A program made the position numbers and the translations under genes. From assembly GCF_900111945.1 (NCBI RefSeq), contig NZ_FOYO01000001.1, positions 38,251 to 102,250 of the forward strand: a stretch of DNA of 64,000 nt, read 5' to 3'. The stretch comes from Litoreibacter janthinus (GTDB taxonomy: Bacteria > Pseudomonadota > Alphaproteobacteria > Rhodobacterales > Rhodobacteraceae). The stretch's first letter is position 1. The number at the start of each line of letters is the position of its first letter. Below, piece after piece: positions 7,093 through 64,000 of the stretch. The notes under the pieces are model-generated. The model was not told the origin of the DNA. It did no database searches and was given only the letters and a program-made list of their open reading frames with translations.

Positions 7093-9600
7093 TCATTCGC
7101 GAGCGCGCAAAACACGCGCTGGCCGCGTTGCCAATGGGCGCCATGCAAACATGAGCCCAGTTGCCAGCGTGGCCAAAATGCCGCCCGCGATGATTGCAAT
7201 GGCCGACCCGATGGCCACGTGGAAATCAGTCTCCATAACGAAGACGGAAACGGCCCACGCCGCTGCAATTCCCGCAAACAGAGCGATCCCGCCGGCAGTC
7301 AAACCCAAAAGTGCAGAGCGCAATGCGAAGTTGCCAAGCACTGCTGCGCGTGACGCGCCAAGCGTTTTGAGCACAGCCCCCTCATAAACTCGCGCCTTTT
7401 CACCGGCGGCCGCCGTTCCGATCAACACAATTCCGCCGGTCACCAACGTCGCCAAAGCACCGTAGGTGATGGCCGCCGCGATCCCCTTCAGAACCTCGCT
7501 CACACGGTCGATAGCGTCGCGCACACGGATCGCTGTTATGTTGGGATAAGCTTTCGCCAGATCGCGCAGAATCGCGGGCTCGTCTGCTTCTTCGGCATAG
7601 ATCGTTGCAATATGAGTGTGCGGCGCACCTTCCAGCGCAGCTTTGTTCATTGACAGCACAAAGCCCAGCCCGCCCGTTGAGAAATCGACTTCGCGGAAAC
7701 TGGTAATCTCTGCCGTAATGTCACGCCCCAGCACGTTCACAGTTAGGGTATCGCCCAACTTCAGCCCAAGCTCCTCGGCTTCCTCTGCGGCAAAGCTGAT
7801 CTGCGGCGGGCCTTGATAGCCTTCGCCCCACCATGTGCCGTCGGTTATCATTGTGCCGTCCGGCAAAGCGTCGGCATAGGTGACACCTCGGTCTCCGCGG
7901 ACGACCCAGTGATCGCCTGCCACCTCCATCGCAGACTCACCATTGATCTGGGTAATGACCCCTCGCAGCATCGGCGCGCTTTCAATCTTTGACACGCTCG
8001 GTCGCGCTTCCAGCGAAGCCTTCACCGGCTCCAACTGGTCGGGCTGAATGTCTACGATGAAGTAGCTCGGCGCAATTTCGGGTAAATCCCCCGCAATCGC
8101 GTTCCGCAAGTTGGAATCGATCTGCCCGACCGCCGCCAGAACGGAAAGTCCTAACCCCAACGAGACGACAACGGCCTGCGCCTCGCGACCCGGCCCACCG
8201 ATCGCACCCAATGCAAATCGCAACGTCCGGAAACCGCGCATGCGTGGTGCAAGCCACCTCGCCAACGCGCCAACACCCAACGCCGCAAGCACGAGCAACA
8301 CGAACGCCGCCATGATGCCACCCGCAGCCCACAAGGTTAGCATCGCCAAGCCGGACAATAGCGCAGCAGAGCCAACCAGCGCTGCAAGTACGACAGCGCA
8401 GACGACAATCCAAATCGACCGTGGCCATCCGCGCAGACCGCTTTGCGCGTCCCGAAACAGGGCTGCGGCTCGGATATGCTCGGACTGTCCCAACGGCCAG
8501 AGCGTGAACAACGTCGCAGCCAGAGCCCCGTAAAGCGCCGCCTCTGCCAAAGGGCGAACCCGCAACGCAAGATCAACTGGAACTGGCAGGCTCGCCTCGA
8601 TAATCGGACCAAAAACCAGCGGCAAGACGCCCCCCAGAAACAGCCCCATTGCAATGCCCAATGCGGCCAGCGCACCGACCTGCAGCAGGTAAACTCGGAA
8701 CACCAATCCACCCGACGCGCCTAAACTTCGCAGAGTGGCGATTACTTCAGTTTTTCCAGCGAGATAGGCCCGCACCGCCGCCGAAACCCCGACGCCACCA
8801 ACGGCCAGACCAGTCAGGCCAACCAACACTAGAAATGCCGACAACCGCTCCACGAAACGCGAAATGCCAGGTGCCCCATTGCGACGGTCTCGCCAGCGAT
8901 AGCCGGTGCCTTCCAAAGCGGTTTCAGCTTGGGCTTTGGCGGTTTCCAGATCTAACGCTTCAGGCGTTTTGATCCGGTATTCCGTTTCGAACAAAGATCC
9001 CGGTGCCAACAACCCTGTGTCTCCCAACGCGGCGCTTGAAACCAAAGTCGGTGGCCCTAGTGAGAAGCCTGCCCCTGCGCTATCAGGCATCCTGTCAAGT
9101 GCAGCCATAGCGATGAAGTCTTTAGCTCCAAGTTTGACCCTGTCGCCCACCTCCAGCCCAAGCCGCGCAAGAAGCACCGGGTCGATCACGGCCCCAGGAA
9201 GCCCGTTGCGACCCGCCAACGCGGCAGACAAGGGCATGTCGGGAGTGAGATTGACAGCCCCATAAAGCGGATAGGCGTCATCGACACCTTTAATCTGCGT
9301 CAATGCCCGCTCGTCCCCGACCGCGAGCATAGATCGGAAATCAACAAGCTCGGACACCTCCCCCAAGCCCTCGAAAAACGCCCGTTCTTCAGGGTCGGCA
9401 AATCGGTAAGTCAGTTGGACTTCAACGTCGCCGCCTAGGATAACCGCCCCTTGCTCCGTCAATCCGGCTTCAATCGCGCCTCGCACGGTCCCGATTGCGG
9501 CGATCGCCGCTACACCCAAAGTCAGGCACGCCAGAAACACCCAGAAGCCGCGCAGGCCACCACGTAACTCACGTCGAGCGATACGCCATGCAAGGCTCAT
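7093..9600 (-). CDS. ABC transporter permease, FtsX-like (YbbP type)
   Basis: An 835-residue inner-membrane permease. It begins [22 protein letters not shown] with the first membrane helix, followed by a large periplasmic domain (about 45-250), a block of helices with an FtsX domain (about 255-480), a second periplasmic domain, and a final FtsX block ending in WRPLATRPARVLRARE. This arrangement and length match YbbP-like proteins, which pair with a LolD-like ATPase. The ATPase gene lies just upstream and overlaps by four bases. The transported substrate is not known; association with an esterase gene suggests lipid or envelope work. Confidence 0.9.
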   Translation of the reverse strand: MSLAWRIARRELRGGLRGFWVFLACLTLGVAAIAAIGTVRGAIEAGLTEQGAVILGGDVEVQLTYRFADPEERAFFEGLGEVSELVDFRSMLAVGDERALTQIKGVDDAYPLYGAVNLTPDMPLSAALAGRNGLPGAVIDPVLLARLGLEVGDRVKLGAKDFIAMAALDRMPDSAGAGFSLGPPTLVSSAALGDTGLLAPGSLFETEYRIKTPEALDLETAKAQAETALEGTGYRWRDRRNGAPGISRFVERLSAFLVLVGLTGLAVGGVGVSAAVRAYLAGKTEVIATLRSLGASGGLVFRVYLLQVGALAALGIAMGLFLGGVLPLVFGPIIEASLPVPVDLALRVRPLAEAALYGALAATLFTLWPLGQSEHIRAAALFRDAQSGLRGWPRSIWIVVCAVVLAALVGSAALLSGLAMLTLWAAGGIMAAFVLLVLAALGVGALARWLAPRMRGFRTLRFALGAIGGPGREAQAVVVSLGLGLSVLAAVGQIDSNLRNAIAGDLPEIAPSYFIVDIQPDQLEPVKASLEARPSVSKIESAPMLRGVITQINGESAMEVAGDHWVVRGDRGVTYADALPDGTMITDGTWWGEGYQGPPQISFAAEEAEELGLKLGDTLTVNVLGRDITAEITSFREVDFSTGGLGFVLSMNKAALEGAPHTHIATIYAEEADEPAILRDLAKAYPNITAIRVRDAIDRVSEVLKGIAAAITYGALATLVTGGIVLIGTAAAGEKARVYEGAVLKTLGASRAAVLGNFALRSALLGLTAGGIALFAGIAAAWAVSVFVMETDFHVAIGSAIAIIAGGILATLATGLMFAWRPLATRPARVLRARE

Positions 9601-10292
9601 TGCGCCGCCACCGCCAAGCTGTCGCTCATCACCTGCCCATCACGCAGCTGGACAACGCGGTCGCATCGCGCGGCCAACTCGGCGGCATGGGTCACAAGGA
9701 TCAAAGTTGCGCCGTAACGGTCACGCAGGTCGAACAGCAGATCCATCACCATCTCGCCCGTTGCCGCGTCAAGATTGCCCGTTGGCTCATCGGCGAGCAA
9801 AATCTTTGGCTGCCCTACAACCGCGCGCGCCAAAGCAACTCGTTGCTGCTCTCCGCCAGACATTTGCGACGGGTAATGCCCGCCGCGTGATGCCAACCCG
9901 ACTGCCGCCAATTCCGCCTCGGCACGCGCGAAGGCATCGCGCTCTCCAGCCAATTCCAGTGGCAAAGCGACGTTCTCCAAAGCGGTCATTGTCGGAATTA
10001 AGTGGAAGGATTGGAAAACCACCCCCATATGATCCCTACGGAAGCGGGCAAGCCCGTCCTCACCCATCGGGGTGAGGTCTTGACCCAAAACCGATATAAG
10101 CCCGGATGTGGCGCGCTCCAGCCCGCCCATCACCATCAGGAGAGACGACTTGCCAGACCCCGAAGCCCCAGTAAGCCCAAGTGTTTCTCCCTCTGCGACC
10201 TCCAGAGTGATGCCTTTTAGTATCTCCACGACACCCGCATTTCCGTCCAATGACAGCGTTAAGTTTTCGAGGCGCATCACTGGGTCGGTCAT
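9597..10292 (-). CDS. ABC transporter ATP-binding protein (YbbA/LolD-like)
   Basis: A 231-residue ATPase. Walker A is GASGSGKSS, the signature is [14 protein letters not shown], Walker B is [12 protein letters not shown], and the switch His is in [11 protein letters not shown]. The start was set at [11 protein letters not shown], because the upstream extension of the frame is not conserved-looking and would cross the divergent esterase start. The partner permease gene follows with an ATGA overlap. Together with the divergent GDSL esterase this reproduces the ybbA-ybbP-tesA arrangement of enterobacteria. Confidence 0.93.
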
Positions 10293-52813: not shown

Positions 52814-53920
52814 GTGAAAAAGGCCCTAATAACCGGCGTAACCGGACAGGACGGCTCCTATTTGGCGGAGTTTCTGCTCGACAAGGGCTACGAAGTGCAC
52901 GGCATCAAGCGCCGCGCTTCGTCATTCAACACCCAGCGCGTAGATCATATCTACCAAGATCCTCATCTCGATAACGCGCGGTTTATGCTGCATTACGGGG
53001 ACCTCACCGACAGCTCCAACCTCACGCGTATTCTGTCCGAGGTCCAGCCTGACGAAGTCTATAATCTAGGTGCGCAATCGCATGTCGCGGTAAGCTTTGA
53101 GTCTCCAGAGTATACGGCCGACGTCGATGCCATGGGTGCGCTACGCCTTCTTGAGGCTATTCGCTTCCTCGGGCTTGAAAAGAAAACTCGATTCTATCAG
53201 GCATCAACCTCGGAGCTTTACGGCCTCGTGCAAGAGACGCCGCAAACCGAGACAACGCCTTTCCATCCGCGAAGCCCTTACGCAGTTGCGAAGATGTATG
53301 CCTACTGGATTACAGTGAACTATCGCGAAGCGTATGGAATGTACGCCTGCAATGGCATCTTGTTTAATCACGAAAGCCCGCGCCGAGGCGAAACCTTTGT
53401 GACGCGCAAGATCACCCGCGGCTTGGCGAATATCGCGCAGGGCTTGGAAGACTGTCTTTACATGGGCAACATTGATGCCCTGCGTGATTGGGGCCACGCC
53501 AAAGACTACGTTCGGATGCAGTGGATGATGCTGCAGCAGGACAAGCCAGACGACTTCGTTATTGCGACTGGGAAACAGTATTCCGTTCGTCAGTTCATTC
53601 TTTGGGCGGCAGAACACCTTGGGATAGCCCTGCGCTTCGAAGGCAGCGATGTTGAAGAAGTGGCCATTGTCGACTCCATCACCGGCGACAAAGCGCCAGC
53701 TTTGAAACCTGGCGACGTGGTTTTGCGCATCGACCCTCGTTACTTCCGCCCGGCCGAAGTCGAAACGTTGCTTGGAGACCCGACCAAAGCAAAACGGGAA
53801 CTTGGCTGGTCACCAGAAATCACAACCCAAGAAATGTGCGCCGAAATGGTCGCAGAGGATCTCAAAGCCGCGCGTCGGATGGTGGTATTGAAAGCCCATG
53901 AGGCGGAGCAAAAAGCCTGA
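52814..53920 (+). CDS. gmd: GDP-mannose 4,6-dehydratase
   Basis: A 368-residue extended SDR. The NAD(P) loop is [13 protein letters not shown]; catalytic Thr/Ser region STSELYG and YAVAK (Tyr156, Lys160); [17 protein letters not shown] binds the nucleotide sugar. It converts GDP-mannose to GDP-4-keto-6-deoxymannose. The start is GTG at 52814. Its stop overlaps the next start by one base. First gene of a four-gene operon. Confidence 0.96.
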
Positions 53921-54855
53921 TGGCGCAGCTAAAAGCAAAGCGGATTCTGCTGACGGGTGGTGGCGGTATGGTTGGGCAAAACCTTCTAGAAGCTGCCCCG
54001 CACCTGAACATTGACCATCCGTCCAGCAAAACGCTTGATCTGGCCAAAGCCAACGACGTTCAGGCCTATCTGCAGGACACCAAGCCAGACTTGATTATTC
54101 ATGCTGCGGGCAAAGTCGGCGGCATTCAGGCAAATATGGCAGATCCTGTAGGGTTTCTGGACAAGAACCTTGCGATCGGGCGAAACCTGATCATGGGCGC
54201 ATATGAAGCAAGGGTGCCGGAGTTTCTGAACCTGGCGTCGACCTGCATCTACCCACGAGCTGCGGACAACCCGCTGCGGGAAGACATGGTTCTCACTGGC
54301 GAGCTAGAGCCAACCAACGAAGGCTATGCGATCGCCAAAATTGCAGCCCTCCGTCTGTGTGAGTATATCCGCCGCCAGCGACCCGAGATGCAATACAAGA
54401 CACTCATCCCCTGCAATCTCTACGGCCCTCACGACAACTTTCATCCCGAAAAATCCCACTTGCTCCCTGCGATCATTCGCAAGGTTCACGACGCAAAGCA
54501 AAGTGGCGCCGGCAAAGTGGAGATTTGGGGCGATGGCACAGCGCGACGCGAATTCATGTATGCGGGCGATCTAGCGAGCGCCATTCTTGCTGCTGCGGCA
54601 CAGATGTCATCCCTTCCTGATCTGATGAACACGGGGCTAGGGCATGACCATTCAATCAATGATTACTATCAAACCGTAGCTGATGTTCTGGGATGGCACG
54701 GAACTTTCACGCATGATTTGTCCAAGCCAGTTGGTATGAAGCAAAAACTTTGCTCGACCGAAAAAGCCACCGCATGGGGATGGACCGCGTCAACATCGCT
54801 TACGGATGGAATTACCAAAACCTACGACTATTTTCTGGAGAACCACGCATCATGA
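53920..54855 (+). CDS. GDP-L-fucose synthase / GDP-L-colitose synthase-like epimerase-reductase
   Basis: A 311-residue SDR. The cofactor loop is LLTGGGGMVGQNL; Cys109 in STCIYPR and the NFHP..SH His are the epimerase residues; Tyr136 and Lys140 (YAIAK) form the SDR pair. This is Fcl/WcaG by similarity. ColC, which makes GDP-colitose from the 3,6-dideoxy intermediate, belongs to the same family, and the next gene encodes a ColD-type dehydratase, so ColC activity is as likely as Fcl. The sequence alone does not separate these. It overlaps both neighbours. Confidence 0.85.
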   Translation: MAQLKAKRILLTGGGGMVGQNLLEAAPHLNIDHPSSKTLDLAKANDVQAYLQDTKPDLIIHAAGKVGGIQANMADPVGFLDKNLAIGRNLIMGAYEARVPEFLNLASTCIYPRAADNPLREDMVLTGELEPTNEGYAIAKIAALRLCEYIRRQRPEMQYKTLIPCNLYGPHDNFHPEKSHLLPAIIRKVHDAKQSGAGKVEIWGDGTARREFMYAGDLASAILAAAAQMSSLPDLMNTGLGHDHSINDYYQTVADVLGWHGTFTHDLSKPVGMKQKLCSTEKATAWGWTASTSLTDGITKTYDYFLENHAS

Positions 54856-56024
54856 GCTTTAAATTTCCGCTCGCAACGTCGTCTTGGGACCAAGCCGAAC
54901 AAGATGCGTTGCAGCGCGTAATCGCATCGGATCGCTACTCCATGGGCAGCGAGGTCGAAACCTTTGAGCGCCAGTTCGCGAAACATTTCGGTTCAAGCTA
55001 TGCTGTAATGGTCAACTCGGGCTCATCCGCCAACCTGCTTATGGTCGCCGCGTTATTCTATTCGCAGAACCCAGAGCTGAGCCTGAAGGCAGGGGACGAG
55101 GTGATTGTTCCTGCAGTCTCTTGGAGCACGACATACTTCCCGCTTCAGCAATACGGCTTGAAGCTGAAATTCGTCGATATAGACGCTGAAACCTTGAACT
55201 ACGACCTTGAGGCTTTGGCCGATGCCGTGACCGACAAGACACGCGCACTGATGGTGGTGAACTTGCTTGGCAATCCGAACGACTTTGACCGGATCAACAG
55301 CATCATTGCTGGCCGAGGGATTGTCATGATTGAAGACAATTGCGAGTCGATGGGTGCAACCTTCAACGGCAAACAAGCCGGCACCTTCGGAGTGATGGGA
55401 AGTTTCTCGTCTTTCTTCTCGCACCACATCTCGACCATGGAAGGCGGCCTCGTAGTCACCGACGACGAAGCACTTTACCACATCATGCTTTCCCTCCGCG
55501 CGCATGGCTGGACACGAAACCTTCCCAAAGAGAACACTTTGACGGGGACGAAAAGCGATGATCCTTTCGAGGAATCGTTCAAGTTTGTTCTTCCAGGATA
55601 CAACCTCAGACCACTGGAAATGTCAGGCGCGCTTGGACAGGCGCAATTGCTAAAGTTGCCTTCGCTGATCGACGGGCGGCGCAGCAATGCCGCGGCCTTC
55701 CAGCAGAAAATGCAGAACCATCCCCTGTTTACGATCCAGAAAGAAACTGGACAAAGCAGTTGGTTTGGTTTCAGCTTGGTGATGAAGGAAAGCGCGAACG
55801 TGTCGCGCAAACAAGCGATCTCGGCGCTGACCGACGCTGGCTTCGAGTGTCGGCCAATCGTGACGGGCAACTTTGCCAAGAACGAAGTTCTGAAATACTT
55901 CGACTACGAAGTTCACCAGCAACTGGCAAATGCCGACTACATTGACCAAAACGGTTTGTTTATCGGGAACCACCACTATCCGATCCAAGATGCGTTTGAT
56001 GTTCTGGCAGAGGTGACAGTTTAA
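54852..56024 (+). CDS. ColD-type GDP-4-keto-6-deoxymannose 3-dehydratase (DegT/DnrJ family)
   Basis: A 390-residue member of the DegT/DnrJ/EryC1/StrS fold. At the PLP lysine position it reads [12 protein letters not shown] (His191-His192) where aminotransferases have Lys. A His at this place is the mark of ColD, which uses PLP to remove the C3 hydroxyl and makes a 3,6-dideoxy sugar. Other blocks match: [10 protein letters not shown] (PLP phosphate), [23 protein letters not shown]. The length matches ColD (388). Start at [12 protein letters not shown], with an ATGA overlap with the gene before. Confidence 0.85.
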
Positions 56025-57472
56025 TGAGTAATTTGATTCATCCGCTCTTGTTGTGTGGGGGCTCTGGCACTCGGCTTTGGCCGCTTTCGCGGAAAAGCTA
56101 TCCTAAGCAATTCGCACAATTGACTGGTGAAGAAAGTCTGTTTCAAGCCTCCGCTCGACGCATGGCGAATGACGCTTTTGCTGCGCCAATGATCGTCACA
56201 GGTTCTGATTTTCGCTTCATCGTTAAGGAGCAGCTTGCTGCAGTCGGCTTAGCGCCTGATGCAATCATAATCGAACCTGAAGGGCGCAATACCGCTCCGG
56301 CAATTCTGGCGGGAGCACTCACACTGGAAGCGCGTGACCCTGGCGCCCTAATGCTTGTTGCCCCGTCTGACCACGTTATCCCCGACGCGAAGCAGTTCTG
56401 CGACGTTGTGGCGGCAGCGATACCAGCGGCCCTTAATGGGCAGTTGGTGACGTTTGGTATCCAACCCGACAGAGCAGAAACCGGCTATGGGTGGCTGGAA
56501 CTGACGACAGCGCTTTCCGAACAGACGGACGCCCTGGCTCAACAACTCAAGGCCTTTGTGGAGAAACCCGACGCCAAGACTGCGCAGACAATGTTAGAGG
56601 GTGGCAAACACCTGTGGAACGCAGGCATCTTCTTGTTTTCCACCACAACGATGATCAAGGCCTTCGAGGCCCATGCACCGGACATGTTGGAAGGCGTTCG
56701 CGCAGCTGTAAGCGATGCAGAAAACGATATCGGGTTTACGAGGCTCGCTGAAAAGCCGTGGGCAGCGCTGGCCTCAGACTCAATCGACTATGCTGTCATG
56801 GAGAAGGCCGAGAACCTTAGCGTTATGCCATACAGCGGTGCATGGTCGGATCTTGGCGGCTGGGAAGCCGTCTGGCGGGAAACCGGGCCGGATGCGAATG
56901 GCGTCGTTACCAGCGGCACGGCTACTGCGATCGAATGTAAAAATACGCTGCTCCGCGCCGAAGATGGCAAACAAGCATTGGTTGGGATCGGGTTAGACGA
57001 CATCATCGCCGTCGCCATGCCTGATGCAGTTTTAGTCGCACACAAGGATCGCGCACAAGACGTCAAGATTGCAGTCGCTGCATTGAAAGAGCAAAACGCA
57101 GTGCAGGCTGAGACGCTTCCGCGTGACTATCGGCCGTGGGGCTGGTTCGAAAGCTTGGGCACAGGCACCCGCTTTCAGGTCAAACGCATCGTTGTAAACC
57201 CCGGTGCGGCGCTGTCCTTGCAAAGCCACAAGCATCGCGCGGAGCATTGGATCGTTGTCGAAGGCACAGCAAAGGTGACCATCGACGAAGAGGTGAAACT
57301 GGTTGAAGAAAACCAGTCCGTCTACATTCCCCTAGGTGCCGTTCACCGGATGGAAAACCCGAAAGATGTGCCGATGGTATTGATCGAAGTTCAAACTGGC
57401 AGCTATCTCGGCGAGGACGACATCATACGTTACGAAGACATTTATGCCCGAGGTCAAGGAGCCAAAGGGTAA
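56024..57472 (+). CDS. manC: Mannose-1-phosphate guanylyltransferase / mannose-6-phosphate isomerase
   Basis: A 482-residue bifunctional protein. The GTP-binding nucleotidyltransferase half begins LLLCGGSGTRLWPLSRKSYPKQF with pyrophosphorylase motif; FVEKPD and WNAGIFLF are typical. The carboxyl cupin isomerase half holds RPWGWFESLGTGTRFQVKRI and SLQSHKHRAEHWIVVEGTA. It makes the GDP-mannose that Gmd uses. It overlaps the ColD-like gene by one base. No phosphomannomutase gene is nearby. Confidence 0.95.
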   Translation: MSNLIHPLLLCGGSGTRLWPLSRKSYPKQFAQLTGEESLFQASARRMANDAFAAPMIVTGSDFRFIVKEQLAAVGLAPDAIIIEPEGRNTAPAILAGALTLEARDPGALMLVAPSDHVIPDAKQFCDVVAAAIPAALNGQLVTFGIQPDRAETGYGWLELTTALSEQTDALAQQLKAFVEKPDAKTAQTMLEGGKHLWNAGIFLFSTTTMIKAFEAHAPDMLEGVRAAVSDAENDIGFTRLAEKPWAALASDSIDYAVMEKAENLSVMPYSGAWSDLGGWEAVWRETGPDANGVVTSGTATAIECKNTLLRAEDGKQALVGIGLDDIIAVAMPDAVLVAHKDRAQDVKIAVAALKEQNAVQAETLPRDYRPWGWFESLGTGTRFQVKRIVVNPGAALSLQSHKHRAEHWIVVEGTAKVTIDEEVKLVEENQSVYIPLGAVHRMENPKDVPMVLIEVQTGSYLGEDDIIRYEDIYARGQGAKG

Positions 57473-57605: not shown

Positions 57606-58283
57606 ATGAACTCAGACGTTTTGAACACGCAGTGGGTTGAGCGATTCCCCGGCCTCTCACGGCTGGAACCCACAACCAAAAAGCTTCTTGTTCAGCGCAG
57701 CACTGTCGTCTCGATGCCGGAGAAGTCCATTATTTTTGGTCCGGGTAAGTCTCCGGAGAACATGTTGTTCCTCTTGAGCGGGACAGTGCGGGTTCAGCAA
57801 GTCTCGGAAACCGGGCACGAAATCGTCCTATACAGGATCAATGCGGGCGAAAGCTGCGTTCTTACTACGGCTTGCCTGCTTGCCTATGACGACTATTCCG
57901 CCGAAGGCGTTGCGGAGTCGGAGGTACAGGCCGCTGCCGTGCCAAGGCTGGTATTCGATGATCTCGTTGCGCAATCCCCGTCGTTTCGAAACTTCGTATT
58001 CGCCGCGTTTTCCAAGCGGATAACGGACCTGTTCCTTATGATCGACGAGGTCGCATTTCAGCGTATGGATGTAAGATTGGCACATAAGCTGATCGAACTG
58101 TCCAATGGCGAAGATCAGATATCGACCACACACCAGAAGCTGTCCGTTGAGCTCGGGACCGCCCGAGAGGTGATTTCACGGCAACTTCAGGAATTTCAGC
58201 GGCGCGGCTGGGTCGAGCAATCACGCGGGACGGTAAAAATTCTGGACCGGCCAGAGCTCGAAAATCTCGCGGATCGCAGTTAA
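57606..58283 (+). CDS. Crp/Fnr family transcriptional regulator
   Basis: A 225-residue regulator with a cyclic-nucleotide-like sensor domain (about 20-145) and a carboxyl helix-turn-helix (LSVELGTAREVISRQLQEFQRRG). It has no amino-terminal Cys cluster like FnrL, but has Cys84 and Cys90 in GESCVLTTACLL, in the sensor domain. This motif recurs in regulators next to sulfide-oxidation genes, and here such genes follow. I infer a thiol or persulfide sensor. A GTGAC-TTT-GTCAC site lies between it and the next gene. Confidence 0.9.
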   Translation: MNSDVLNTQWVERFPGLSRLEPTTKKLLVQRSTVVSMPEKSIIFGPGKSPENMLFLLSGTVRVQQVSETGHEIVLYRINAGESCVLTTACLLAYDDYSAEGVAESEVQAAAVPRLVFDDLVAQSPSFRNFVFAAFSKRITDLFLMIDEVAFQRMDVRLAHKLIELSNGEDQISTTHQKLSVELGTAREVISRQLQEFQRRGWVEQSRGTVKILDRPELENLADRS

Positions 58284-58374: not shown

Positions 58375-58587
58375 ATGGCTACGAATGTTGGCAAAATCGA
58401 TCGTGTGTTTCGCCTAATCTTGGGCATCGTCTTAGTCGCAGCACCTTTTGTTAGTGGAATGGCGCTCTTCAATTCGACCATTGTCACAGCGATCTCGTTG
58501 ATTGCAGGTGTGGTGATGTTGGTAACTGCTGCGGCACGCACATGTCCGCTCTACTCAATCTTCGGCATCAAGACTTGCAAGGTCTAA
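58375..58587 (+). CDS. DUF2892 (YgaP-like) membrane protein
   Basis: A 70-residue protein with two helices (LILGIVLVAAPFVSG; ISLIAGVVMLVTAA). It begins with NVGKIDRVFRLILG and ends ARTCPLYSIFGIKTCKV with two Cys, matching DUF2892. These proteins lie in sulfur-transfer or sulfide-oxidation loci and their role is not known. The Shine-Dalgarno is AAAGGAG, 10 bases before the start. Confidence 0.92.
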   Translation: MATNVGKIDRVFRLILGIVLVAAPFVSGMALFNSTIVTAISLIAGVVMLVTAAARTCPLYSIFGIKTCKV

Positions 58588-58589
58588 TC

Positions 58590-59021
58590 GTGGAAACCGT
58601 ATTCACACCTTGGCAATCCCTGAGCGGCGGCGTTCTTATCGGCGCCGCTTCCGTCATGTTGATGGCCACGCTTGGCCGCGTCATGGGAGCGACTGGCATC
58701 CTGGCTGGCTTGTTCTCACCGTCTAGTATGTCTGATTGGACATGGCGCGCGGCGGTGCTGCTGGGCATGATCTCCGGCCCCATCGCCGTTTTGGCGATCA
58801 CCGGTCAGATGCCCGCGGTCCAAGTTCCAATCTCGACAACCATGCTCGTCATTGGCGGGTTCATCGTTGGCATTGGCGTGACCTTCGGATCCGGCTGCAC
58901 CTCAGGGCACGGCGTTTGCGGCATGGCCCGCTTATCGCCCCGCTCAATCGCGGCGACCGTCATGTTCATGCTGACAACTGGCATCACGGTTTACGTGATC
59001 CGCCACGTATTGGGAGGATAA
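58590..59021 (+). CDS. YeeE/YedE family half-transporter (first)
   Basis: A 143-residue protein with four to five helices. The conserved Cys signature is VTFGSGCTSGHGVCGMARLS. This is one half of a YeeE/YedE (TsuA-like) thiosulfate or sulfur-species transporter, with the other half encoded downstream. Start set at a GTG (58590), two bases after the DUF2892 stop, with AAGGT before it; a longer frame would read back through that gene. Confidence 0.88.
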   Translation: METVFTPWQSLSGGVLIGAASVMLMATLGRVMGATGILAGLFSPSSMSDWTWRAAVLLGMISGPIAVLAITGQMPAVQVPISTTMLVIGGFIVGIGVTFGSGCTSGHGVCGMARLSPRSIAATVMFMLTTGITVYVIRHVLGG

Positions 59022-59024
59022 GAC

Positions 59025-59459
59025 ATGCGCCTGATCGCTAGCTATCTCATCGGTCTGGTTTTTGGTGTCGGGATCTCCATTTCCGGCATGGCCAACCCTG
59101 CCAAAGTGCTGAATTTCTTCGACGTGGCGGGCACATGGGACCCAAGCCTTATTTTCGTGATGGGCGGCGCAGTAGTGGTGACTTTCATCGGATATCGTTT
59201 CGTTCTACGGCGCCCAGCGCCGTCGTTGGAAGACACCTTCAAGCTTCCCACACGTAGCGATCTCGATCTCTCATTGCTCGGCGGGTCTGCCCTGTTCGGC
59301 ATCGGCTGGGGGATTGCAGGATTCTGCCCAGGCGGCGCATTGCCCGCTATTGGCACCGGAAGGTCTGAAGTCCTAATTTTCGCAGTTGCGCTTATTGCCG
59401 GTATCTTTGCCGCGAAAGCGCTTCAGCGCATGTCAGCCGCCAAGGCGGCTGCCGCCTAA
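59025..59459 (+). CDS. YeeE/YedE family half-transporter (second, DUF6691)
   Basis: A 144-residue protein beginning MRLIASYLIGLVFGVGISISGM, with GIGWGIAGFCPGGALPAIG as the conserved Cys-containing loop. It completes the two-subunit YeeE/YedE system with the gene before it. Three bases separate the genes. Transport of thiosulfate or a related sulfur compound is likely. Confidence 0.88.
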   Translation: MRLIASYLIGLVFGVGISISGMANPAKVLNFFDVAGTWDPSLIFVMGGAVVVTFIGYRFVLRRPAPSLEDTFKLPTRSDLDLSLLGGSALFGIGWGIAGFCPGGALPAIGTGRSEVLIFAVALIAGIFAAKALQRMSAAKAAAA

Positions 59460-59482
59460 CACTCTTCCAAAGGAGCGATCCC

Positions 59483-60364
59483 ATGACTTACCCCGTGGAT
59501 ATGAACGTTAAACCAGTGATTTCGGCCCATTTTGACGAAGCAACCAACACCATAAGCTACATCGTGCGCGATCCATCGAGCACACATTGCGCGATTATCG
59601 ATAGCGTCATGGATATCGACTATGCTGCTGGTCGCATCACCTATGACCATGCCGACGCATTGATTGAAGAGATCAAAACCCAAGGCTTGACGCTGGATTG
59701 GATCATCGAGACCCATGTGCATGCCGACCACCTTAGCGCTGCGCCCTACATCCAAGAAAAGCTTGGCGGGAAAATCGGCGTCGGCGAAAAGATCATGGTT
59801 GTGCAAGAAACCTTCGGAAAAGTCTTCAACGAAGGCACCGAATTTCAGCGTGATGGGTCCCAATTTGATGCCCTGTTCAAGGATGGCGACACCTACTCGG
59901 TGGGCAACATGCAGGGGTTTGCTATGTATACCCCGGGACATACACCTGCCTGCATGGTCCATGTTCTGGGCAATGCGGCGTTCGCTGGCGACACGTTGTT
60001 TATGCCTGATGGCGGTTCAGCCCGCGCGGACTTCCCGGGAGGCGACGCTGGTCAGCTGTATGACAGCATCCAGAAAGTTCTGTCTCTTCCCGACGATATG
60101 CGGCTTTTCATGTGTCACGACTACGGCCCCAATGGTCGCGCGATCGAATGGGAAACCACAGTCGCGGAGCAGAAAGCCAACAACATACATGTCGGTGGCG
60201 GCAAAACGCGGGAGGAGTTCATCAAGTTCCGTACCGAGCGCGACGCTCAGCTCGACATGCCAAAGCTGATCATCCCGTCACTTCAAGTGAACATGCGCGC
60301 CGGTGAAATCCCGACCGACCAAGACGGCAATCCAATGCTCAAGGTTCCGATCAACGGCCTTTAA
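59483..60364 (+). CDS. Persulfide-dioxygenase-like MBL-fold hydrolase (Blh/ETHE1 type)
   Basis: A 293-residue metallo-beta-lactamase-fold protein. Metal motif THVHADH (His78, His80, Asp82, His83), a downstream GHTPACMVH, then FAGDTLF, and CHDYGP near the end are the mononuclear iron pattern of ETHE1-like persulfide dioxygenases. It would oxidise glutathione persulfide to sulfite. It is in the sulfide operon with SQR, which supports the role. The family also includes glyoxalase II-like proteins. Confidence 0.9.
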   Translation: MTYPVDMNVKPVISAHFDEATNTISYIVRDPSSTHCAIIDSVMDIDYAAGRITYDHADALIEEIKTQGLTLDWIIETHVHADHLSAAPYIQEKLGGKIGVGEKIMVVQETFGKVFNEGTEFQRDGSQFDALFKDGDTYSVGNMQGFAMYTPGHTPACMVHVLGNAAFAGDTLFMPDGGSARADFPGGDAGQLYDSIQKVLSLPDDMRLFMCHDYGPNGRAIEWETTVAEQKANNIHVGGGKTREEFIKFRTERDAQLDMPKLIIPSLQVNMRAGEIPTDQDGNPMLKVPINGL

Positions 60365-60389
60365 GTTACTCAAAGTTAGGACACCTCAA

Positions 60390-60836
60390 ATGAATAAATC
60401 AGCGATCACGCTGGCTGCGGCTTTCTGGGCCGCAAGCAACGCACTTGCGATGGCGCAAGGCATTCCCGGTCAGCACTTCATGGAAAACTGGGACCTCAAC
60501 GAGGATGGAACAGTCACCTTGGCCGAAATCACCGAGCGCCGCGACAACGTTTTCATCTCCTTCGACGCGGACGACAACGGCTCTTTAAGCGCTGAGGAGT
60601 ATGAGCTGTTCGACGAAGCCCGTGCCAGCCACCAAAACGACGGCGCCCAAGGACAGGGCGGCGGTAAAGGTCACGGCAAAGGCGCCGGCGAAATGATGGA
60701 CATGGTAGTCAATGACACCAACGCGGATGGCGTCGTCTCACGTGACGAGTTCATGGCCCAAGCCCCGCTTATGCTCGCAGCGTTGGATAAGAACTCCGAC
60801 GGAACTGTGACTGCCGCAGACTTCAAGAAGCGTTAA
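60390..60836 (+). CDS. Exported EF-hand protein
   Basis: A 148-residue protein with a signal peptide (KSAITLAAAFWAASNALAMAQG) and four EF-hand-like Asp-rich loops: DLNEDGTVTLAE, DADDNGSLSAEE, DTNADGVVSRDE and DKNSDGTVTAAD, with a Gly/His/Lys-rich linker (GQGGGKGHGKGAGE). All four loops have acidic residues at positions 1, 3, 5 and 12. It should bind calcium in the periplasm. It sits between the metallo-hydrolase and SQR genes in the same direction. The start is ATG 60390. Confidence 0.88.
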   Translation: MNKSAITLAAAFWAASNALAMAQGIPGQHFMENWDLNEDGTVTLAEITERRDNVFISFDADDNGSLSAEEYELFDEARASHQNDGAQGQGGGKGHGKGAGEMMDMVVNDTNADGVVSRDEFMAQAPLMLAALDKNSDGTVTAADFKKR

Positions 60837-60862
60837 GCGACATCAAGGGAGCGAAGCACGAA

Positions 60863-62533
60863 ATGGACCCTAAAACACTCACGGCAAGCGTCTCAGTTTG
60901 CCCACAAATCACGCCAGACGATATTCAGGCGGTCAAGGATCAGGGGTTTCGCTCCATCATATGCAACCGGCCCGACGGCGAGGGCGCAGATCAGCCGTCC
61001 TTCGATGAAATCGCGGCCGCGGCTAAGAAACTCGGGCTAGAAGCACGATATCTTCCCATCGTTTCGGGCAAGGTCAGCGACGAAGATGCGCTGGACTTCG
61101 GCAATGCACTAAACGAGCTACCAGGGCCGACACTGGCCTATTGCCGCACAGGGACACGTTCTGCCACGCTCTGGTCGCTTGCCAAAGCCAAGAGCCTGAG
61201 CGTCGCAGACATCATGGCAGCAACCAAAGCCGCTGGCTATGATATGGGCGGCGTCGTCCGCCGCATCGTCAACGGGGGCAAGACCCCAACCGACAGGGCT
61301 GACGCATCATACGATGTTGTGATTGTGGGTGCTGGCGCCGCAGGGATTGCAGCTGCTTCCAGCCTGCAATCGCGACGCGCTGGCTTGGAAATCGCAATTA
61401 TCGACCCAGCTGACATTCACTACTACCAACCCGGTTGGACAATGGTCGGCGGCGGGATTTTTGACGCGCCAGACACAGCAAAAACCATGGGCTCACTCAT
61501 CCCGCGTGGCGTTCATTGGATCAAGGCTGCTGTTGCGGCGTTCGAGCCGCAGGATGATGCCGTCATCCTCGATGGCTGCCGTGTCGTGAAATACAAGCGA
61601 CTGATCGTATGCCCTGGCCTCAAGTTGGATTGGCAGCGGGTTGAGGGCCTTGTCGAGACCTTGGGCAAGAATGGCGTGACCTCAAACTATCGCTACGATC
61701 TGGCGCCATACACGTGGGAGCTGGTTCAGAATATGAACGAGGGCCGAGCGATTTTCACCCAGCCGCCAATGCCGATCAAATGCGCGGGGGCTCCGCAAAA
61801 GGCGATGTATCTTTCTGGCGATGCCTGGTTCCGCCGTGGCGTTCTGAAGGATATCGACATCCAGTTTAACAACGCTGGTGGGGTCTTGTTCGGTGTTAAG
61901 GACTACGTTCCCGCTTTGGAAAAATACGTCGAGAAATACGGCGCGACCCTCAATTTCTTCCACAACCTTGTAGCTGTTGATGGGGCAGCGAAGAAGGCTT
62001 GGTTCGACGTTAGCAAGCCCGACACGCCTGTCGAACGCGTGGAGATGGAATTCGACATGATGCATGTCTGCCCACCGCAGACCGCGCCTGATTTCATCCG
62101 AGTGTCCCCGTTGGCTGATGCGGCGGGCTGGATCGACGTGGATCAATCAACCCTGCGTCACAAGACATATGAAAATATCTGGTCTCTCGGCGATGTCATG
62201 AACGCGCCAAATGCCAAAACCGCAGCGGCAGCTCGTATTCAGGCGCCCATCGTCGCCGAGAACATCGTCGCGGACATGGACGGTCGCGCACCAGTGGCGC
62301 AGTATAATGGATACGGCTCGTGCCCTCTCACGGTTGAGCGCGGCAAGATCGTTCTGGCGGAATTTGGGTATGGCGGCACCATGCTCCCTAGTTTCCCTAA
62401 GTTCTTAATTGACGGCACCAAACCTTCACGTGCCGCATGGTTGCTGAAAGAAAAGATGCTTCCGCCGATCTATTGGAAAGCCATGCTTCGCGGGCGCGAA
62501 TGGATGGCCAAGCCTGAGAAGATCACGACCTAA
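60863..62533 (+). CDS. DUF442 phosphatase-like / sulfide:quinone oxidoreductase fusion
   Basis: A 556-residue fusion. Residues 1-140 are a DUF442 (TIGR01244, Blh-type) domain with a Cys94-centred loop AYCRTGTRS. From about 150 is a flavoprotein, VVIVGAGAAGIAAASSL, with Cys250 (LIVCPGLKLDW) and Cys307 (PIKCAGAPQKAMYL), the pair that marks type II (SQOR-like) sulfide:quinone oxidoreductases. The carboxyl end matches membrane-bound SQR. It would oxidise sulfide with transfer of sulfur to a thiol and electrons to quinone. Confidence 0.92.
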   Translation: MDPKTLTASVSVCPQITPDDIQAVKDQGFRSIICNRPDGEGADQPSFDEIAAAAKKLGLEARYLPIVSGKVSDEDALDFGNALNELPGPTLAYCRTGTRSATLWSLAKAKSLSVADIMAATKAAGYDMGGVVRRIVNGGKTPTDRADASYDVVIVGAGAAGIAAASSLQSRRAGLEIAIIDPADIHYYQPGWTMVGGGIFDAPDTAKTMGSLIPRGVHWIKAAVAAFEPQDDAVILDGCRVVKYKRLIVCPGLKLDWQRVEGLVETLGKNGVTSNYRYDLAPYTWELVQNMNEGRAIFTQPPMPIKCAGAPQKAMYLSGDAWFRRGVLKDIDIQFNNAGGVLFGVKDYVPALEKYVEKYGATLNFFHNLVAVDGAAKKAWFDVSKPDTPVERVEMEFDMMHVCPPQTAPDFIRVSPLADAAGWIDVDQSTLRHKTYENIWSLGDVMNAPNAKTAAAARIQAPIVAENIVADMDGRAPVAQYNGYGSCPLTVERGKIVLAEFGYGGTMLPSFPKFLIDGTKPSRAAWLLKEKMLPPIYWKAMLRGREWMAKPEKITT

Positions 62534-62545
62534 GCACTGCAAACA

Positions 62546-62569
62546 GCCTCCGCCTGTCTTGGCGGAGGC
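62546..62569. terminator. Hairpin between SQR and SulP genes
   Basis: A nine-base perfect stem (GCCTCCGCC at 62546-62554 and its complement at 62561-62569, six-base loop). There is no T-run after it, so it may be a processing or partial attenuation element rather than a full terminator. Confidence 0.5.
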
Positions 62570-62592
62570 ACCTATACGAACGAGCCCCAATC

Positions 62593-64000
62593 ATGCGTGA
62601 CCACCTGACACGGTACCTCCCCATCGCGACATGGGGTCGTGAATACAATCGCACCACCTTATCAAATGACCTACTTGCCGCGTTGATTGTCACAATCATG
62701 CTGATCCCACAGTCATTGGCCTACGCGTTGTTGGCAGGACTCCCACCGGAAGCAGGTCTTTACGCATCAATTGCACCAATTATTCTTTACGCAATATTCG
62801 GCACCAGCCGCGCGCTGGCAGTAGGTCCCGTCGCAGTTGTCTCGCTGATGACCGCGGCCGCGCTTGGCAACATCGCGGAGCAGGGAACCATGGGCTATGC
62901 GGCAGCGGCGTTGTTGCTCGCGGGAATGTCAGGCGTCATATTGCTTGGGATGGGATTATTCCGTTTGGGCTTTGTTGCGAATTTTCTGTCCCACCCAGTG
63001 ATCGCAGGCTTCATTACCGCATCTGGTATGATCATTGCAGCCAGCCAGTTAAAACACATACTCGGGATCAACGCAGAAGGTCACAACCTGCTGGACCTTT
63101 TGATTTCGCTGGTCGAACACCTGCCGGAAACCAACTGGATCACGGCAATTATCGGCGTCTCGGCAACGGGCTTTCTGTTCTGGGTGCGCAAAGGGCTGAA
63201 ACCCGCGCTCAAACGCGCAGGTGTAAGGTCTGGGATCGCGGACGTGGCCACGAAGGCTGGCCCTGTCGCAATTGTTGTGGCAACCACATTCGCTGTCTGG
63301 GCATTTGGCCTAGATGCACGTGGAGTGAAGATTGTCGGCGAGGTGCCACAAAGCCTGCCCCCACTCACACTCCCTGTCTTTTCAACGGACTTGGTGCGTC
63401 AGTTGCTGCTTCCGGCTTTTCTGATCTCTATCATCGGCTTCGTAGAGTCTATTTCTGTCGCGCAGACGCTCGCAGCCAAAAAACGCCAACGTATTGACCC
63501 AGACCAAGAATTGATCGGCCTAGGCGCTGCCAACGTCGCTGCGTCCCTAACGGGCGGGTTCCCTGTGACAGGGGGCTTTTCCCGTTCCGTTGTAAACTTC
63601 GATGCAGGCGCCGAAACACCCGCTGCCGGTGCCTATACTGCAGTTGGCTTGGCAATTGCGGCAGTTGCTTTGACGCCTTTGATATTTTTCCTGCCGAAGG
63701 CCACACTAGCTGCGACCATCATTGTCGCAGTACTGAGCTTGGTAGATTTCAGTATCCTGAAACGCAGCTGGTCGTACTCAAAAGCTGACTTCGCCGCTGT
63801 GTTGGCGACTATCCTGTTGACCTTGGGAATTGGTGTAGAAGCAGGTGTGTCCGTTGGTGTTGGCCTGTCGATCCTGCTTCACCTTTATAAATCCTCACGC
63901 CCGCATATCGCCGAAGTCGGACTTGTGCCAGGCACCGAGCATTTTCGAAACATTCTACGGCACAAGGTCAAAACGGACCCGAAGGTTATCACCATGCGTG
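62593..64000 (+). CDS. SulP family inorganic anion transporter, 3' end outside window
   Basis: An open frame from ATG 62593 (MRDHLTRYLPIATWGREYNR) to the window end, about 469 residues without a stop. The amino part holds helices with LIVTIMLIPQSLAYALLAGLPPEAGLYAS, the SulP signature, then SRALAVGPVAVVSLMTAAAL, FLSHPVIAGFITASG and TGGFPVTGGFSRSVVNFDAGA. Members carry sulfate, bicarbonate or other anions; the STAS domain should lie past the edge. It closes the sulfide module and may export the sulfite or sulfate formed. Confidence 0.94.
   Translation, partial: MRDHLTRYLPIATWGREYNRTTLSNDLLAALIVTIMLIPQSLAYALLAGLPPEAGLYASIAPIILYAIFGTSRALAVGPVAVVSLMTAAALGNIAEQGTMGYAAAALLLAGMSGVILLGMGLFRLGFVANFLSHPVIAGFITASGMIIAASQLKHILGINAEGHNLLDLLISLVEHLPETNWITAIIGVSATGFLFWVRKGLKPALKRAGVRSGIADVATKAGPVAIVVATTFAVWAFGLDARGVKIVGEVPQSLPPLTLPVFSTDLVRQLLLPAFLISIIGFVESISVAQTLAAKKRQRIDPDQELIGLGAANVAASLTGGFPVTGGFSRSVVNFDAGAETPAAGAYTAVGLAIAAVALTPLIFFLPKATLAATIIVAVLSLVDFSILKRSWSYSKADFAAVLATILLTLGIGVEAGVSVGVGLSILLHLYKSSRPHIAEVGLVPGTEHFRNILRHKVKTDPKVITMR

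Follow-up and report, generated by a model that had tools for sequence, protein, structure and literature searches.

A probable GDP-L-colitose operon in Litoreibacter janthinus and a candidate transfer module elsewhere in its genome

The closest described system is the colitose pathway of Escherichia coli O55 and O111, which comprises the enzymes Gmd, ColD, ColC, ManC and ManB. In ColD a catalytic histidine, H188, replaces the lysine of the aminotransferases (PMC8987622). For 3B8X the figure legend of that paper names K188 and the PDB sequence shows Asn; this minor discrepancy leaves the alignment column unaffected. E1 (RfbH) and SpnQ are likewise PMP enzymes with His in place of Lys (PMC8987622), but their substrates are CDP or TDP sugars and they contain a [2Fe-2S] cluster. 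Colitose has been described from the lipopolysaccharide of some E. coli, Yersinia, Salmonella or Vibrio (PMC8987622), from the capsule of Vibrio cholerae O139 and from Aeromonas trota (PMC3210612), from Pseudoalteromonas carrageenovora (PMC4052302) and, according to a title in the reference list of PMC8614823, from Herbaspirillum frisingense. Furthermore, ColC and ColD were named in the genome of a verrucomicrobial endosymbiont (PMC8204192). The lipooligosaccharide core of Colwellia psychrerythraea 34H ends in colitose (PMC8914368); this organism is likewise marine, but it is a gammaproteobacterium and offers an analogy only for the destination of the sugar. For the transfer step, WbgN of E. 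coli O55 is an alpha-1,2-colitosyltransferase of family GT11 which accepts both GDP-colitose and GDP-fucose (PMC11987014; PMC12723683). Predicted colitose pathways have been surveyed across genomes (PMC7725333), so predictions of this pathway are not new in kind. As far as the accessible parts of these sources go, and with most subscription journals outside the search, no report of colitose from Rhodobacterales was found in the literature.

The operon and its ColD protein

The genome of Litoreibacter janthinus encodes the same enzyme set as E. coli O55/O111, including the active-site His. Four of the genes lie together in the window, i.e. the whole stretch of 64,000 nucleotides of contig NZ_FOYO01000001.1 that was analysed. 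The features are as follows:

52814..53920, + strand: gmd, GDP-mannose 4,6-dehydratase, forming GDP-4-keto-6-deoxy-D-mannose (TIGR01472, 587.7 bits, cut-off 415)
53920..54855, + strand: colC-like gene, predicted GDP-L-colitose synthase (C5 epimerase/C4 reductase), by its ColC grouping
54852..56024, + strand: colD, 66% identical to E. coli O111 ColD (ColD in the PDB, E=4.8e-174)
55422..55424, + strand: codon of His191, equivalent to ColD H188, in the column of the Schiff-base lysine (2r0t Lys, 3b8x Asn)
56024..57472, + strand: manC, bifunctional mannose-1-phosphate guanylyltransferase/mannose-6-phosphate isomerase (TIGR01479, 571.8 bits, cut-off 372.95)
57606..58283, + strand: gene of a Crp/Fnr-family regulator, 133 bp past the operon (PF13545, PF00027)

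The initial annotation had described gmd, an Fcl/ColC-like gene and manC as overlapping in one operon with colD, and indeed gmd, colC, colD and manC overlap in this order by 1, 4 and 1 bases. As in the E. coli O111-type locus (L065), colC stands directly upstream of colD and overlaps it. Unlike the E. coli O55/O111 loci, the operon is compact with four genes, no wzx, wzy or transferase gene is recognised alongside, and manB is unlinked. Gmd is 79% identical to Gmd of E. coli O111. Within the own genome gmd, colC and colD have one full match each, further matches being at most 31% identical (for gmd there is no further match above 30% identity), and manC is its own sole match at E 0.001. A ManB homologue (54% to O111) is encoded at C1:2037132-2038478, so there is a candidate gene for every step from mannose-6-phosphate to a 3,6-dideoxy sugar nucleotide. 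The Crp/Fnr gene is found at the same place in all four of the other Litoreibacter loci, and its co-transcription with the operon or a role in its regulation is possible. Past this gene, at 58542-63999, follow genes for YeeE-type sulfur-transport, metallo-beta-lactamase-fold and BLH-phosphatase/oxidoreductase proteins and for a sulfate permease, which we take to be perhaps a sulfide or persulfide set.

The translation of 54852-56024 comprises 390 residues with no inner stop, and the identity to E. coli O111 ColD extends over 385 residues. The ATG at 54852 agrees with the start of E. coli ColD and is therefore preferred to a TTG at 54750, which would give a longer frame. The claim that a His occupies the position of the PLP lysine was confirmed by the alignment to ColD and DegT aminotransferases which had been proposed along with it: the first His of the motif FFSHH is residue 191 and stands in the phmmer alignments opposite the Lys and the Asn of the ColD active-site mutants 2r0t and 3b8x, respectively, and opposite the His of wild-type ColD (2gms). 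The Schiff-base Lys of a DegT aminotransferase is thus replaced by His191, and two DegT paralogs of the own genome (L002, L004) have Lys at this position. The motif is kept in 47/47 distinct ColD sequences. These come from 48 places (38 named loci, 8 further genomes of the family, the window and E. coli O111); L018 and L039 share one sequence, and L041 is partial. On this comparison of sequences the protein is a ColD orthologue.

By analogy to the E. coli enzymes, from which all reactions given here are inferred, ManC would supply GDP-mannose together with the ManB encoded elsewhere, and Gmd would convert it to GDP-4-keto-6-deoxy-D-mannose. ColD, a PMP enzyme with His191 where the aminotransferases have their lysine, would then remove the C3 hydroxyl with release of ammonia and would be recharged by glutamate. 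Inversion at C5 and reduction at C4 by ColC would yield GDP-L-colitose, the likely end product.

The ColC-like reductase and the predicted product

The ColC-like protein is 49% identical to ColC of E. coli O111 and 39% to Fcl of K-12, and it reaches 317.6 bits with the Fcl equivalog model NF047922, which has a cut-off of 500. A tree was calculated for 68 proteins, after one duplicate had been dropped. They come from 37 of the 38 ColD loci (L041, truncated by a contig end, is left out), eight ColD genomes of the family sample, O111 ColC, K-12 Fcl, the window, and 21 ColD-less genomes of the family, these being the best-scoring with loci out of 55. A branch with 100/100 support separates 44 colD-adjacent rows, the window protein and O111 ColC among them, from 22 Fcl rows and two colD-adjacent rows of Cellulomonas; the tree is unrooted and midpoint-drawn, so that any "clade" depends on the root. 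In addition, 32 columns separating ColC from Fcl were chosen with the window, its genus, O111 and K-12 set aside. At these columns the window protein shows the ColC state 29 times, the Fcl state once and another residue twice; the corresponding numbers are 21, 4 and 7 for O111 ColC and 0, 30 and 2 for K-12 Fcl. A ColC/Fcl match at E 1e-40 exists in 64 of 198 genomes of the family, and the nine best belong to exactly the nine genomes with ColD; the ninth is a divergent protein (G120, 6e-80) which is barely ahead of the first Fcl (8e-78). A search of the own genome found no second ColC/Fcl gene.

The ColD orthology, the partner from the ColC group, the overlap with gmd and manC and the single ColC/Fcl gene together point to GDP-L-colitose, in support of the first proposal of GDP-colitose or a relative as the product. 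We hold it for very probable that gmd-colC-colD-manC is a GDP-L-colitose operon.

The best surviving alternative, in itself improbable, is another GDP-3,6-dideoxyhexose: ColD would act as in E. coli, and the ColC-like protein would work without C5 inversion or with another outcome at C4. An identity of only 49% to the E. coli enzyme leaves room for such a product, and the stereochemistry at C4 and C5 cannot be read from a sequence. Nevertheless, S107, C109, Y136, K140 and H179 (Fcl numbering) are all kept in the window protein, and the ColC state prevails at the separating columns. We take these five to be the catalytic residues of Fcl, with C109 and H179 presumably serving the epimerase and S-Y-K forming the SDR triad.

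A deviating reductase is present in Cellulomonas septica (L036, 1448-2359) and C. terrae (L042, 9045-9956), where it lies between gmd and a ColD of 62% identity. In the tree both proteins stand with the Fcl rows, by a join which the program flagged for long branches, and both have Asn (GSANAYP) in place of the epimerase residue Cys109. From these sequences the two actinobacteria may make a different GDP-3,6-dideoxyhexose. Within the ColC group Cys109 is missing from a single row, the ColC-like protein of a Stagnimonas MAG (L044, ~9072-9998), which has Ala instead and a very long branch.

A still more remote alternative is an operon that is real but silent or decayed, so that no colitose is made. 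The position of the operon away from any recognised polysaccharide cluster would fit this idea. Against it, none of the four reading frames in the window is interrupted, their starts overlap, and four other Litoreibacter genomes possess near full-length matches to all four genes at the same place, with 81-91% identity. In these genomes, whose ColD proteins are 85-88% identical to that of the window, the operon is preceded by hemN and followed by the same crp and yeeE genes as in the window; the TRAP genes found in between in the window were seen in one of the four. Place and neighbours shared by four genomes suggest that the operon has long been resident in Litoreibacter. Among the species that carry it are L. 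meonggei, L. ascidiaceicola, L. halocynthiae and L. albidus. In one further genome of the genus (G171), ColD, ColC and GT11 all remained without a match at the thresholds applied. A recent foreign island was considered but seems unlikely, as the GC content per kb of the operon (0.526-0.558) is little off that of the flanks (0.538-0.577) and its place is the same in the four genomes.

Two more readings are hardly credible. According to the first, the locus would be a plain GDP-fucose locus with an adjoining DegT aminotransferase for a product of the GDP-perosamine type, as the automatic names of relatives and the match of ColD to Pfam DegT_DnrJ_EryC1 would have it. However, the Schiff-base Lys is missing, and in a phmmer ranking of the PDB the perosamine synthetases come only near 1e-30, against 5e-174 for E. 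coli ColD (2gms and others), for which reason an aminotransferase of the perosamine type was rejected. A GDP-fucose locus is out because the reductase groups with ColC instead of Fcl, remains below the Fcl cut-off and, used as a query against the genome, brought up no second ColC/Fcl gene. The warning that such loci are easily mis-annotated proved well founded, as the E. coli ColD rows listed carry the name DegT/DnrJ/EryC1/StrS family aminotransferase, in this or another word order, and the mislabelling as GDP-fucose genes foreseen with it recurs as "GDP-L-fucose synthase" under the match in 5/14 plasmid records. The ColC-like protein scores below the Fcl cut-off and ColD below every cut-off of the 25 families shown, which may be why generic names are given.

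The second, a 3-dehydratase of the E1/SpnQ type in need of an iron-sulfur reductase, could appeal to the same His substitution and to RfbH as the top NCBIfam match of ColD, but this match (NF011936) has 259.1 bits against a cut-off of 423, E1 follows in the PDB ranking at 3.8e-51 against 4.8e-174 for ColD, the adjoining Gmd supplies a GDP sugar, and only two Cys (Cys164, Cys333) are present, so that the four-Cys [2Fe-2S] site of E1/SpnQ, as defined in PMC8987622, is absent and an E1-type enzyme is out.

Distribution of ColD loci and a candidate transfer module

The operon had been regarded as unusual for a marine alphaproteobacterium. This holds insofar as ColD is sporadic, with 9/198 sampled genomes of the family at E 1e-120, the own genome included, but not in the sense of a singular case, as it recurs in many Rhodobacterales. 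A contig scan, whose patterns were built from the query and thus favour near relatives, gave 40 loci: 38 with ColD (L007-L044), a distant DegT protein (L045, 28%) and a fragment (L046). The order gmd-colC-colD is found in 34 of the 38; the exceptions are L036 and L042 with the Fcl-like reductase, the rearranged L038 and the cut L041. In 12/38 loci, taken over all groups, manC follows directly after colD. ColD of Litoreibacter, Roseovarius, Sulfitobacter, Paracoccus and Pseudophaeobacter, with identities of 56-88%, is nearly always encoded in a gmd-colC-colD arrangement, but outside Litoreibacter the surroundings of the Rhodobacterales loci differ and some copies are on plasmids. ColD was found in 14 of 72,556 plasmid records, 13 of which belong to alphaproteobacterial genera. 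Apart from the genes of the pathway itself, the neighbouring families common to the ColD loci are confined to genus-specific ones and to unspecific sugar genes. More distant ColD-like proteins (H25-H29) are encoded on four Azospirillum plasmids (49-50%) and on a plasmid of the archaeon Haladaptatus (40%). A Roseobacter MAG contig (JADFAE010000007.1) carries two loci, L018 and L039, with identical ColD ~95 kb apart and both in the order gmd-colC-colD-manC; to judge from the sequence this pair would be a duplication or an assembly artefact.

A transferase encoded elsewhere would probably add colitose to a surface glycan, either lipooligosaccharide or polysaccharide. The search for this enzyme comprised similarity to four E. 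coli transferases and Pfam domains of 20 window proteins plus ten others (nine of them of the window); among the proteins scanned, none from the neighbourhood of the operon could be recognised as a transferase, flippase or polymerase, and there is no match to WbdI in the window. The O111 transferases are of the GT2/GT4 type by Pfam, not GT11, and were of no help in finding the transferase; E. coli EA13 has the same gene layout. Other transferase matches in the own genome (9 and 8) gave no link to colitose. The best candidate is a single GT11 gene, the one GT11 match of the own genome (PF01531, E=7.4e-32), with its neighbouring genes:

L146:8772-9629 (C1:3253772-3254629): GT11 gene, candidate colitosyltransferase
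L146:9718-10377, divergent to GT11: FkbM methyltransferase, by its domain
L146:10368-11240, beyond FkbM: GT10 fucosyltransferase-domain gene, with four PDB matches, all fucosyltransferases

The set spans C1:3253772-3256240 (L146:8772-11240) with EF-P on its other side, and GT11, FkbM and GT10 occur together with EF-P in all four other ColD-bearing Litoreibacter genomes. WbgN and the own GT11 are likened here by membership of the same family, not by sequence comparison, and the own gene differs in adjoining the FkbM methyltransferase and GT10 genes; at E 0.01 it has no relative in the PDB.

GT11 is present in 7/9 genomes of the family with ColD and in 27/189 without (Fisher p=7e-5; 6/8 without the own genome, p=3e-4), values not corrected for kinship. 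The ColD-less cases divide into 15/55 genomes with Fcl and 12/134 with neither gene. An FkbM gene adjoins GT11 in five of the seven loci examined from ColD genomes but in none of 23 from ColD-less genomes (p=1.5e-4); the own genome counts here by construction, being the source of the FkbM query, and without it the figures are 4/6 against 0/23 (p=6e-4). An FkbM homologue was counted when a tblastn search with the own FkbM gave a match at E 1e-8 in flanks of ~1.2-1.5 kb (one locus shorter), and four of the 34 GT11 genomes, which have no locus, are left out of the count. In a quick tree of 48 GT11 rows, many of whose forks are weak, FkbM-linked rows stand on several branches, the FkbM label changes seven times, three of them forced by well-supported branches, and GT11 proteins of ColD and ColD-less genomes are mixed.

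This mixing, the occurrence of GT11 in ColD-less genomes and the named ColD loci speak in part against a link of GT11 to colitose. The 37 genomes of the named loci, standing behind the 40 loci with L039, L041 and L045 left out, lack a GT11 match in 18 cases, and in 7 of the 19 with GT11 (four Litoreibacter, L163, L164 and L166) an FkbM gene adjoins it. GT11 falls within the flanks covered in two of the 38 loci only, L013 and L040, and likewise in the fragment L046. The best relative of the own GT11 outside Litoreibacter (58%) is encoded in Rhodobacter amnigenus (L013), 1.6 kb downstream of colD, and the second best (54%) in a genome with Fcl and without ColD. GT11 furthermore adjoins ColD in G036, lies ~4 kb from it in G174 and ~6 kb in L040, and stands beside the ColD fragment of L046.

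From this genomic association alone we infer the part of the transferases and of any methylation, and the own GT11 is put forward as a candidate colitosyltransferase using GDP-colitose. It is conceivable, but on balance rather doubtful, that some roseobacters have a dispersed colitose system, in which a lone chromosomal operon is combined with an unlinked, conserved GT11-FkbM(-GT10) module attaching O-methylated L-colitose to a surface glycan.

Meaning for roseobacters

The pathway biochemistry is already known; the unlinked and possibly methylating transfer module is the more novel part, though unproven. Relatives of the operon proteins that are named aminotransferase or fucose synthase could be renamed by the simple sequence tests used here, and GT11-FkbM-GT10 is a testable transferase module. 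The operon predicts for roseobacters a specific, rare surface sugar of the 3,6-dideoxy type, whose best-known occurrence is in the O-antigens of E. coli. Sugars on the cell surface can be of importance in phage adsorption, in biofilms and in contact with algae. If the dispersed system should prove true, marine roseobacters would display methylated colitose as a hitherto unrecognised surface epitope.
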